NCBI RefSeq assembly: GCF_003259225.1
Contig: NZ_QHJF01000013.1
Location: 1-64,000, forward strand
Direction of reading: 5' to 3'
DNA from: Marinomonas arctica
GTDB lineage: Bacteria; Pseudomonadota; Gammaproteobacteria; Pseudomonadales; Marinomonadaceae
Length of the DNA stretch: 64,000 nucleotides
Positions 52,504 to 55,719 of this stretch are shown in pieces. A program made the position numbers and the translations under genes. Positions within the stretch are counted from its first letter, which is position 1. Each line of letters opens with the position of its first letter. The notes beneath the pieces were generated by a model. That model did not search any database. It was not told the DNA's origin and worked only from the letters and a program-made list of their open reading frames with translations.

Positions 52504-53133
52504 TTAGGGAGCCAACTTACTCAACAATATTTTAATGCCCGCTGCGCCAAACATCAGCGCGAAGGTGACATCAAAGCCGCGTTTCATTTTGAAATACCCT
52601 TGACGAATGCTTGGGTTGGAAAACAGCATAGCGTAGCCAAAGAAAAGACACGCACTCTGTATACCCACTAAAAAAATAATAGACAATAGACCGTCTATAC
52701 CGACGGTACTAGGCACGCCCATTGAATATAGTGCACCAAAAAACAAGATGACTTTAGGGTTGGTTAAGTGAATCGCCAAACCACGTAAATAGTCATTCTT
52801 CACCGAAAGTGAAGCCGTATTTTCCAGCACTAATTCTTTATGAGACAAAGCAGACTTAAAAGACTTGTATGCTAAAAACAATAAATAGGCGGCGCCAAAA
52901 TAACGAAATAAGTCAAACAACCAAGCATTGGCGTACATCAAAGCGGCCATGCCAAACGCCGCCGAAAACGACCATATAAAAGACCCTGTGAGAATCCCAA
53001 ACGCCATAGCAATTCCATTACGTCGACCAGAATTCATGGATGTTCCAGCAATCGCCAAGGTTGCAGGCCCAGGACTTGCCGTCGCAACTAACGCCGCAAT
53101 CAAAATCAAACCATAATTAATTTCTTGCATCAT
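52504..53133 (-). CDS. LysE/RhtB-family amino-acid or metabolite exporter
   Basis: The 209-residue protein has six hydrophobic segments and the LysE signature ATASPGPATLAIAGTSMNSGRRNG with the SPGP motif, then LAIHLTNPKVILFFGALY. It exports amino acids or similar compounds. It overlaps the upstream EamA stop (TAATG), so the two exporters are translationally coupled. The start may be ATG 53133 or the second ATG at 53130. Confidence 0.9.
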   Translation of the reverse strand: MMQEINYGLILIAALVATASPGPATLAIAGTSMNSGRRNGIAMAFGILTGSFIWSFSAAFGMAALMYANAWLFDLFRYFGAAYLLFLAYKSFKSALSHKELVLENTASLSVKNDYLRGLAIHLTNPKVILFFGALYSMGVPSTVGIDGLLSIIFLVGIQSACLFFGYAMLFSNPSIRQGYFKMKRGFDVTFALMFGAAGIKILLSKLAP

Positions 53134-54023
53134 TAAACTCCCTTATATTGCTTAACAGATAAAAATCTCGGCAAGGCCATTTGCCCCACAAACAACCCCA
53201 ATAAAATCAGCACGGCGGCGATGATTTGACTCGTTTGTATTGCTTCATCGTAAAACCAATAACCTCCTAAAATACCGAACACAGGGACCAGCAAGGTCAT
53301 TGGTGCAACACTGGATACTGAGTATTTCATGATCATCTTATTCCAAAACCAGTAGCCCAATAATGTCGTCGGGTAAGCTTGAAACAAAGCAGAAAACAGC
53401 GTCCATTGGGTTAATTGATTCGGTAGCTCAGTAATAACCTGCGTCCCTTCCAACATAACCGCCAGCAACAATAAAGGCAAAGGTGCAAACACCATTCCCC
53501 AGATATTAAATGCAAAAATCGATTTGGTGTTTGCGCGTTTTACAATCAAGCCATTAATACTCCAAAACACAGACGCCATTAATACTAAGACTAGCCCCTT
53601 GCCAGTCACCGATCCACCTTCGGAGTACATGATCAATATAAGCCCAAGCAAAGCCAATCCAGCGCCAAGCAATTTGTTACGCGTCATGGTTTCGTTTAAG
53701 CACAGCCACCCCACCAGCAAACTACTGACCACACTCATATCCAACAGCAAAGACGCCATGCCCGCCGAAACGCCAGCACCAATGGATAACGTCGTTAATC
53801 CCCACACACCGACACCAAACGACAAGCCGTAAGCGATCAAATAACGCCACGGCACATCTGGCTTCTTAATAAAAAAGATCAAAGGAAACACCGCAAAACT
53901 AAAGCGCAATGCGGTTAATATCAAAGGATGAACGCTGCTCACCCCCAGCTTAATCACACTGAAGTTCAATCCCCATAGCGCCATCAAGGCAAACAATAAG
54001 CCGAAGTCTCGTAGTTTCATCAT
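53133..54023 (-). CDS. EamA/DMT-superfamily transporter
   Basis: Ten hydrophobic segments in two repeated EamA halves (ALMALWGLNFSVIKLGVSSVHPLILTALRF at the start, VLMASVFWSINGLIVKRANTKS at the middle) mark a drug/metabolite transporter. It is the first gene of an EamA-LysE pair. It is divergent from a MocR-type regulator, which is the common arrangement for this regulator family, so MocR probably controls it. The substrate is unknown. Confidence 0.9.
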   Translation of the reverse strand: MMKLRDFGLLFALMALWGLNFSVIKLGVSSVHPLILTALRFSFAVFPLIFFIKKPDVPWRYLIAYGLSFGVGVWGLTTLSIGAGVSAGMASLLLDMSVVSSLLVGWLCLNETMTRNKLLGAGLALLGLILIMYSEGGSVTGKGLVLVLMASVFWSINGLIVKRANTKSIFAFNIWGMVFAPLPLLLLAVMLEGTQVITELPNQLTQWTLFSALFQAYPTTLLGYWFWNKMIMKYSVSSVAPMTLLVPVFGILGGYWFYDEAIQTSQIIAAVLILLGLFVGQMALPRFLSVKQYKGV

Positions 54024-54070
54024 TCGTTCCTAAATTTTCTAGTAAATTATGCATGTCGCAACATTCCAAT

Positions 54071-54196
54071 AAACACCGTGTTTCGATGAGGTAGGCGCTA
54101 GTTTCGAAAAGAAACACGGTGTTTCATGTTGAGTCAGTGTGGTGATTCTTGAGGTAGGCGCTAGTTTCGAGAAGAAGCACCACACTGACTCAACAT
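54071..54196. repeat. Two adjacent hairpins with different stems and an identical 20-nt loop
   Basis: Hairpin 1 has perfect 14-bp arms (54071-54084 / 54111-54124). Hairpin 2 has perfect 19-bp arms (54126-54144 / 54178-54196), extended inward by five more pairs after one mismatch. The stems are unrelated in sequence. Both loops contain gaggtaggcgctagtttcga exactly (54088-54107 and 54151-54170). One base separates the hairpins. They lie in the EamA/MocR promoter gap, without terminator T tracts. They look like copies of a structured repeat element. Confidence 0.9.
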
Positions 54197-54294
54197 TGCC
54201 GCTAGTATCACTAGAAAACCAAAAAGAACACAGATTCAATTTTTGATAAAAATAAGAGTACAATCTAGAGAGATGAAACACTTTTGGAGAGGTT

Positions 54295-55719
54295 ATGGCG
54301 CTTTACGAAACCCTTGCTCAGCATTATATCGACGACATACAAGCACAAAGACTGCCTGCGGGAAGCCGTTTGCCAGCGTTACGAACCATGGCAAAGCAGC
54401 ATCAAATCAGCATGACGACAGCGACTAAAGCCTATGATTACCTGCAACAAACGGGTTGGATTTATGCGCAGCCTCAGTCTGGTTATTTTGTTGCCAATCA
54501 ACTCGAAGCCACGACATTCCCCAGTCTAGACATCAAAAGTATTGAACAACGGGACCCAAAACGCTTTGCGCCGTTAAATGGCTATAACCCTGCCTCGGCG
54601 CTTTTTAGTCCGCTCGGTACCTCGATGATTGCGCCAGAATTACAACCAAGCATCGCACTGCAACGCAGCATTAAACGTGTCACCCAAAGAGCCGAAAAAC
54701 ATCTGTTTCAATATCCAGAGACACAAGGTGATAAAGGGTTAAGAAGTGCGCTAGCCGAGCATTTTCGTCATCACAATCTCGCCTTTTCAGCCGCAGACTT
54801 TGTCATTACCAATGGCTGTATCGATGCGGTAAGACTGGCGATAGAAAGCGTGACCAAAGAAGGTGACACCATTGCCATTAGTTCGCCCTGTTTTAGTGGC
54901 TTGCTCGATTTGCTCAGCGCCCTATCTCGCAAAGTGATTGAAATCCCCGTTAGTGATAAAGGCTTGGATTTGGACCATCTAGAAACCTTAATGCAACAAG
55001 GATTAATTAAAGCCTCTCTGTTTAGCACCTCGAATATGAACCCAACCGGCATGACGCTGCCCGTTGAGCAAAAACAAGCTTTAGCCAGACTCGCTGCACA
55101 ATACAACACGCCGATGATAGAGGACGACGTGTATTTCGAGTTAAGCCATCAGAAACAACACACACTACCCGCCAAATATTGGGACAAGGAAGGTTATGTG
55201 ATTTGGTGCGGGTCTTTTTCAAAAACCTTAGCGGCAGGACTGCGACTTGGTTGGTGTGTTCCGGGACGATATTTAACGCCTTATATCAAACAACACGCCT
55301 TAACCAGCTTTGGTGTGAACGGACTAATACAATCTTGTATGGCAGAGTTTATTAACACCGGTGAATATCGCTCTCATGTGAATAAAATTCGTACGGTATT
55401 GAACCAACACATCCACCTTTATCAGCAATGTTTGATCGAGCATTTACCTGAACAAGCCAAAATCAGCACCCCACAAGGCGGGATCGTGCTGTGGGTGCAA
55501 ATCCCCAGCCTAAATGCGGTACAGCTTGAAAAAGAAGCCAATAAACAGGGCATCGACATCCGCAGCGGCGCGTGCTTCAGCACCCATGACTTCTACCATG
55601 ATTGCTTTCGCCTAAACTGCGGTTGGCCGCTCGATAATACCGAGGATAAACACAGCACTTATCAACAATTAATCAGCTTATGCGACATAATCAACCGTTT
55701 GATAAAAGCAAAGACTTAA
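54295..55719 (+). CDS. MocR-family regulator (GntR winged helix fused to PLP aminotransferase-like domain)
   Basis: An N-terminal GntR-type winged HTH (LPAGSRLPALRTMAKQHQISMTTATKAYDYLQQTGWIYAQPQSGYFV) is fused by a linker to a fold-type I aminotransferase-like domain. The PLP lysine lies in GSFSKTLAAGLRLGW and FSTSNMNPTGM binds the cofactor. MocR proteins sense a PLP-linked ligand and activate nearby transport or metabolic genes. It is divergent from the EamA-LysE pair. GGAGAGG precedes the ATG at a good spacing. Confidence 0.93.
   Translation: MALYETLAQHYIDDIQAQRLPAGSRLPALRTMAKQHQISMTTATKAYDYLQQTGWIYAQPQSGYFVANQLEATTFPSLDIKSIEQRDPKRFAPLNGYNPASALFSPLGTSMIAPELQPSIALQRSIKRVTQRAEKHLFQYPETQGDKGLRSALAEHFRHHNLAFSAADFVITNGCIDAVRLAIESVTKEGDTIAISSPCFSGLLDLLSALSRKVIEIPVSDKGLDLDHLETLMQQGLIKASLFSTSNMNPTGMTLPVEQKQALARLAAQYNTPMIEDDVYFELSHQKQHTLPAKYWDKEGYVIWCGSFSKTLAAGLRLGWCVPGRYLTPYIKQHALTSFGVNGLIQSCMAEFINTGEYRSHVNKIRTVLNQHIHLYQQCLIEHLPEQAKISTPQGGIVLWVQIPSLNAVQLEKEANKQGIDIRSGACFSTHDFYHDCFRLNCGWPLDNTEDKHSTYQQLISLCDIINRLIKAKT

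Follow-up and report, generated by a model that had tools for sequence, protein, structure and literature searches.

Two adjacent hairpins in the genome of Marinomonas arctica are probably two copies of a dispersed, REP-like extragenic hairpin repeat of Marinomonas that lacks GTAG and in which one strand would fold and be read through its loop. They lie in the window, by which we mean the whole stretch of 64,000 nucleotides that was analysed. Hairpin 1 has plus-strand arms at 54071-54084 and 54111-54124, which pair at 14 of 14 positions, and hairpin 2 has 25-nt arms at 54126-54150 and 54172-54196 on the same strand, which pair at 24 of 25 positions (19 pairs, one mismatch and 5 further pairs). 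The single base 54125 separates the two, and the loop GAGGTAGGCGCTAGTTTCGA is identical in both (54088-54107 and 54151-54170, plus strand). The first-pass annotation had described this pairing, the shared 20-nt loop and the one-base spacing, and all three were confirmed; no third match to the loop was found in the window at up to 3 mismatches, and none in 100 shuffles. Both hairpins folded better than every shuffle on either strand, with z-scores for hairpins 1 and 2 of -5.2 and -9.2 on the plus strand and -4.4 and -8.7 on the minus strand. When positions 53900-54400 were compared with the Rfam families, the best of 4 matches reached 25.2 bits against a gathering cut-off of 245. An 80-aa open reading frame runs across both hairpins (54039-54281, minus strand) and contains the letters CFFSKLAPTS twice because of the twin loops; this reading frame is probably spurious.

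The hairpins belong to a dispersed structured repeat that is, so far, specific to the genus Marinomonas. Their own genome contains 8 matches to the loop at up to 3 mismatches, 7 of which lie in hairpins with paired arms as judged by eye, and the arms of the eighth (L008, 3 mismatches) are not paired. A covariance model of the 7 copies gave 10 matches in this genome at E <= 10 and 9 at E < 0.001. Within the genus, 26 of 48 genomes gave matches at E <= 0.01 (1 to 24 each, 167 in total, some in short arrays), a count made under stricter filters by which weak matches are lost. The possibility, raised beforehand against a recognised element, that only the two window copies exist among all relatives is thereby removed. 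A sample of the order gave matches at E <= 1e-4 in 5 of 194 genomes, all five of them Marinomonas. An exact scan for the loop in one genome per species (84,980 species, among which records near the own genome may be missing) returned 78 stretches, 69 from Marinomonas and 9 from other genera, the latter compared with about 7.5 expected by chance under a uniform base model. It had been suggested that loops without flanking arms should be looked for elsewhere, and they occurred at this near-chance level: none of the 9 matches outside Marinomonas had arms or an arm score above 5, whereas 75 of 81 distinct Marinomonas copies scored at least 10, compared with 2 of 2000 random positions. The six Marinomonas exceptions comprise a copy truncated where its stretch ends (L229), a mismatched stem (L225), a short stem (L215), the fused copy of genome G017 described below (L252) and two broken left arms (L198 and L244). 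In L198 (3976-3995, plus strand) the right arm is kept and the left arm has been replaced, and in L244 (2583-2602, plus strand) the right arm is kept and the left arm is mostly deleted. A search of the open PMC literature for Marinomonas repeats, structured intergenic repeats and the loop letters turned up no description of the family among the papers listed, in agreement with the earlier remark that none was known.

The counts that follow refer to 127 copies from loci among the best matches of the 167, with identical contexts counted once. One wrong-strand match (L007:1478) is included in the analyses of covariation, loop conservation and stem families and excluded from the counts of G.T and A.C, orientation, REP proximity, GTAG palindromes, dispersal, GTAG foot and loop start. 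Among 120 distinct copies, 95.8% of the pair cells were standard and double changes occurred at all 14 of 14 pairs. The covariation score of these copies was 0.659, compared with a shuffled mean of 0.304 and with 0.221 for the best slid version, and it should be underlined that this alignment was fitted to the hairpin structure and that the copies are related. A seven-copy alignment that was not fitted to the structure gave 0.673 against 0.311. The element has a long variable stem (median 16 bp), an inner Y-R pair, then G.A and A.G, and a near-fixed 20-nt loop with a variable tip; the loop is almost fixed across copies whose stems differ. A longer tip, with both loop ends kept, was seen in L050, L059, L138, L063, L016, L042 and L107. 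The inner pair beside the tandem G.A (pair 24-75) covaries. A covarying Y-R pair adjoining tandem G.A fits poorly with a kink-turn, which had been considered by eye; a hammerhead-like core was set aside by eye only. With regard to the stems, the first-pass annotation had called them entirely different, and this is true of hairpin 1 compared with hairpin 2, but across the genus the stems group into related families, and most of the differences between these are paired changes at shared sites.

How strictly the pairing is kept can be judged from 19 groups of copies that share both flanks, some of which include tandem paralogs. In their pair columns, 15 changes were double and 26 were single but preserved the pair, and 24 columns contained a broken cell; pairing is therefore favoured without being strict. 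On the loop strand, G.T exceeded A.C by 90 to 35 over all cells. Counted by cluster, the figures were 25 to 17 at the coarsest level (p = 0.28), followed by 36 to 19 (p = 0.03), 45 to 22 (p = 0.007) and 62 to 26 (p = 0.0002). This tilts the evidence towards the GAGGTAGG strand being the one that folds. The excess is nevertheless to be taken with caution, since asymmetric pair frequencies are also put down to template switching in the excerpts of PMC8794818, and its lack of significance at the coarsest clustering counts against our preferred reading, as do the 24 broken columns.

The gap that holds the hairpins is flanked by genes that, named by eye, look like a DMT/EamA-type transporter (53133-54023, minus strand) and a MocR-type regulator, GntR plus aminotransferase (54295-55719, plus strand). 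It also contains a 34-nt motif, CAGATTCAATTTTTGATAAAAATAAGAGTACAAT (54231-54264), which is not part of the hairpin element, has 0 to 4 differences in all 21 of the 21 genomes shown and is probably a divergent promoter or operator. This motif lies between hairpin 2 and the MocR start; the hairpins are therefore located between the motif and the start of the transporter gene, which would place them in the leader of the latter. A scan of the gap for promoters of the sigma-70 type gave no match, and only one terminator-like site, with a weak 5-bp stem, was found in it.

The locus was compared in 21 genomes, namely the own genome (G000) and the 20 genomes whose MocR is nearest to its own, and the element is present in the gap in 11 of them and absent from 10. 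G000 has both hairpins one base apart, and G001, G016, G032 and G039 have both with a spacer between them, hairpin 2 being kept. G017 has a single hairpin, a fusion across the loops that joins the left half of hairpin 1 to the right half of hairpin 2, so that the right arm of hairpin 2 survives in the fused copy. G038, G024, G012, G031 and G034 have one hairpin each, with the loop inverted. In G032 the left side of the inverted-loop type is joined to the right side of the other type, and G001, G032 and G039 each have a decayed hairpin 1. The right arm of hairpin 1 in G000 shows clustered differences from G016 and G039 towards a match with the left arm, which it now matches exactly, and they lie beside a deletion of the spacer. 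Judged from these alignments, the inverted loop, the fusion, the decay and the re-matched arm appear to be marks of template switching during replication, for which arm homogenisation and spacer inversion (PMC8604942, in excerpt) and compensatory changes (PMC8794818, in excerpt) are reported products. Since relatives bear such marks at this locus, covariation alone is no proof of selection on the fold.

The pairing could thus be mainly mutational, with template switching re-perfecting palindromes and flipping spacers in neutral repeats that are copied by recombination and have no recognised fold. The rewritten arm of G000, the five inverted loops, the G017 fusion and the three decayed copies of hairpin 1 are what would be expected from this, as are the reported template-switch products, and we consider it a serious but less likely alternative. 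It does not sit well with a loop that is near-fixed across copies with different stems, nor with the bias in gene orientation described below (26 of 34 locus groups), and among the 40 largest flanking-protein clusters shown, the same two neighbours occurred on swapped sides only at the window locus. The initial idea that stem variation around a fixed loop is the sign of a recognised fold holds up as far as the many copies, their paired arms and the strong covariation are concerned, but part of the pattern may be mutational, as the arm matching and loop inversion at the window locus suggest. The decay of hairpin 1 in the three genomes also weighs against the reading that we prefer, that of a REP-like repeat recognised through its loop.

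The genomes without hairpins bear on a further suggestion of the first-pass annotation, that the element lands in palindromes already present, from which the stems would derive. In G018 and G028, a small palindrome (ATGTTGAATAACAT or ATGTTGAATCACAT) occupies the site of the outermost arms of hairpin 2. This is the single hint in favour of such insertion, and it could be a deletion remnant; no comparable palindrome was found by eye in the other 8 hairpin-less genomes of the gap comparison. At another locus, beside a globin-like gene and shown for 26 of 46 genomes, the intergenic sequence of the hairpin-less genomes is different and cannot be aligned; these genomes have either shorter gaps or palindromic repeats of another kind. 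The stems, moreover, are related within families and carry paired changes at shared sites. The suggestion thus found no general support, and we regard it as very improbable. At the globin-like locus, several hairpin-less relatives have a CCCTCCCC...GGGGAGGG palindrome instead.

That the element moves as a short unit is indicated by two copies in G011 (L138_4766 and L059_3896), for which the comparison gave 0.97 in the core, 0.17 in the left flank and 0.35 in the right flank. Near-identical cores in unrelated flanks of one genome imply that a unit of roughly 60-70 nt disperses. An origin from phages or plasmids was dropped, since the exact loop had 0 matches in viral contigs and a 141-base stretch had no match to plasmids and phages.

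The hairpins are oriented with respect to genes. There are 37 locus groups, and both neighbours were called in 34; among these, the gene on the 3' side of the loop points back at the hairpin in 26 (p = 0.003). The open reading frames are mechanical calls. Distances between hairpin and gene range from a few to several hundred bases. The right-hand neighbour is often the same gene in many species, for example pgi or a luciferase-like (LLM) gene (names by eye), and maps of 21 stretches show variable genes on the far side of hairpins beside LLM or pgi. A genomic-island or cassette attachment site, with accessory genes on one side and outward-facing pairs, was considered and rejected, since the stretch between two hairpins in G001 contains genes common to the relatives, core by eye.

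Lying behind the 3' end of LLM or pgi, with the variable genes beyond it, the hairpin is also placed as would be expected of a transcription terminator or an mRNA 3'-end stabiliser that stands in for ordinary terminators. The LLM gene is present in 24 of 48 genomes, 22 of which were surveyed (G024 and G041 were left out). Of the species without the hairpin, 10 of 14 had a U-tract terminator within 120 nt after LLM, compared with 1 of 8 of those that have it (p = 0.024, ignoring shared ancestry), and this single site lies inside the hairpin, so that a U-tract directly after the stem was not otherwise encountered in these 8 species. The loss of terminators need not stem from the hairpin, however, because four hairpin-less species (G028, G018, G009 and G011) are also without a U-tract terminator at this locus. 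The window pair likewise fits poorly with termination, lying in a divergent gap whose only terminator-like site is the weak one mentioned above, and we consider a terminator or stabiliser role possible but doubtful. In L257, L259, L260, L262 and L263, a second palindromic repeat, CCTTCCCCTT...AAGGGGAAGG, is present beside the hairpin after the LLM stop codon.

GTAG REPs are also present at loci around the hairpins, and their stems vary around large loops that are fixed. REPs are described and tabulated as abundant elements, as a rule with more than 100 copies per genome (PMC2817692, in excerpt), families of them are tagged by GTAG (PMC3733652, in excerpt), and the excerpts of PMC8266576 report that GTAG is crucial for TnpAREP of E. 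coli and that Marinomonas sp. MWYL1 has the REPtrons Ma (group-2) and Mb. The hairpin occurs at 1 to 24 matches per positive genome, well under that copy number. GTAG stood no more than 6 nt from the 5' foot in 2 of 120 copies, and on the other side in 0 of 120; the other 7 of the 127 copies are not in this count, 5 because their arms could not be measured and 2 because they had no loop match. A listed REP (REP-B, R or A) was present within 300 nt of 30 of 127 copies, as judged by patterns that test the loop and not GTAG, the R pattern being derived from a hairpin's own flank. REP-B lay to the left of 13 copies and to the right of 12; for the R type the counts were 17 on the right and 4 on the left. 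These were always on the opposite strand, and the only copy with a REP on the same strand had a REP-A match. Opposite-strand REP-B or R was thus near 29 of 127 copies, and some arrays alternate hairpin and REP. By our own grouping the REP-neighboured copies amount to six to eight loci, at which the strand bias is at best 8 to 1 (p = 0.04). Strict GTAG-footed palindromes lay within 150 nt of 8 of 127 copies, compared with 18 of 4000 random positions.

The alternating arrays lend some weight to the view that the hairpin is a true REP of the group-2 REPtron Ma type which has lost GTAG and is still spread in trans by a Y1 transposase. The start of the loop also resembles REP-B: 46 of 127 copies have GATGAGGTAGG, one base from the REP-B sequence GATGAGGGAGG, and GAGGGAGG is present in 16, but none of the 127 agrees with REP-B at all 11 bases. 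REP-B is present in 20 of 48 genomes, 19 of which have the hairpin (p = 1e-6), and group-2 RAYT in 14 of 48, namely 12 of 26 with the hairpin and 2 of 22 without (p = 0.009); neither p value takes shared ancestry into account, and both overlaps may reflect it. In contrast, the two genomes with the highest counts, G045 (24 matches) and G011 (14), have neither REP-B nor group-2 RAYT, and G019 and G046 have group-2 RAYT without the hairpin. The almost complete lack of a GTAG foot also argues against a true REP, given its importance for TnpAREP of E. coli in the source cited above. Linkage to a Y1 transposase was rejected: any Y1 gene was present in 22 of the 26 hairpin-bearing genomes and in 15 of the 22 others (p = 0.30), and 14 chosen Y1-gene regions contained no good loop match, only 7 weak ones with 4 errors each. 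For the linked transposase or RAYT gene that the first-pass annotation proposed to look for, these regions and the partial overlap across genomes gave no clean link, and we hold a true REP spread in this way to be unlikely. In the own genome, a RAYT-like gene (159 aa; L300, 1981-2606) is flanked by two GTAG repeats of 45 nt, which are 98% identical. It should be noted that the 97 of 127 copies without a listed REP within 300 nt, together with the absence of REP-B and group-2 RAYT from the two top-count genomes, also speak against the REP-like repeat that we favour.

In the favoured reading, one strand of this GTAG-less repeat would fold, either as single-stranded DNA while the element spreads or as RNA at the 3' ends of genes, and a putative protein would read the loop; the hairpin is probably recognised as a folded single strand through its loop. 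Two processes may act jointly to keep the arms complementary, selection for the folded form and the correction of the palindrome by template switching when it is replicated. The hairpin lies downstream of a gene at most of its sites, perhaps as a 3'-end structure. The pair in the window, between the start of the transporter gene and the promoter-like motif, is probably tolerated rather than regulatory. We put forward with low confidence the more specific conjecture that the conserved loop of this fixed-orientation, GTAG-free hairpin, with its tandem G.A and variable tip, is the site for a putative Marinomonas HUH enzyme acting on single-stranded DNA or for an RNA-binding protein, which would spread the element to the 3' ends of genes, where it would replace ordinary terminators.

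The family is a compact natural system for telling selection on a folded strand apart from template-switch correction of palindromes: at many loci the loop is almost constant and the stems change, at one locus the loop is inverted, and some species have the element and others do not. It also extends the REP-like hairpins by a class that has no GTAG, the tag considered crucial for TnpAREP action, and this raises the question of how such hairpins spread.

Among known systems, intrinsic terminators and 3' stabilising hairpins resemble the Marinomonas hairpin in lying downstream of genes at many loci; the latter differs in that its stem is not followed by a U-tract at the LLM locus, in its near-fixed loop and in its occurrence also in a divergent gap. 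IS200/IS605-type elements and their non-autonomous derivatives have subterminal hairpins. A one-strand hairpin that may serve as a substrate in single-stranded DNA would be common to them and to the Marinomonas hairpin, which is distinguished from them by the lack of a good loop match in the 14 Y1 regions. GTAG REPs and BIMEs in general (REPtron Ma of MWYL1, PMC8266576; PMC3733652, both in excerpt) differ from it in the GTAG foot, in copy number, with 1 to 24 matches per genome for the hairpin, and in the link to RAYT, which is not a clean one here. The family thus fails two defining features of REPs and BIMEs, the GTAG foot and the copy number, yet it is to these that it stands closest, sharing with them the extragenic hairpin, the varying paired stems, the fixed loop and, in some arrays, the alternation with opposite-strand REPs.
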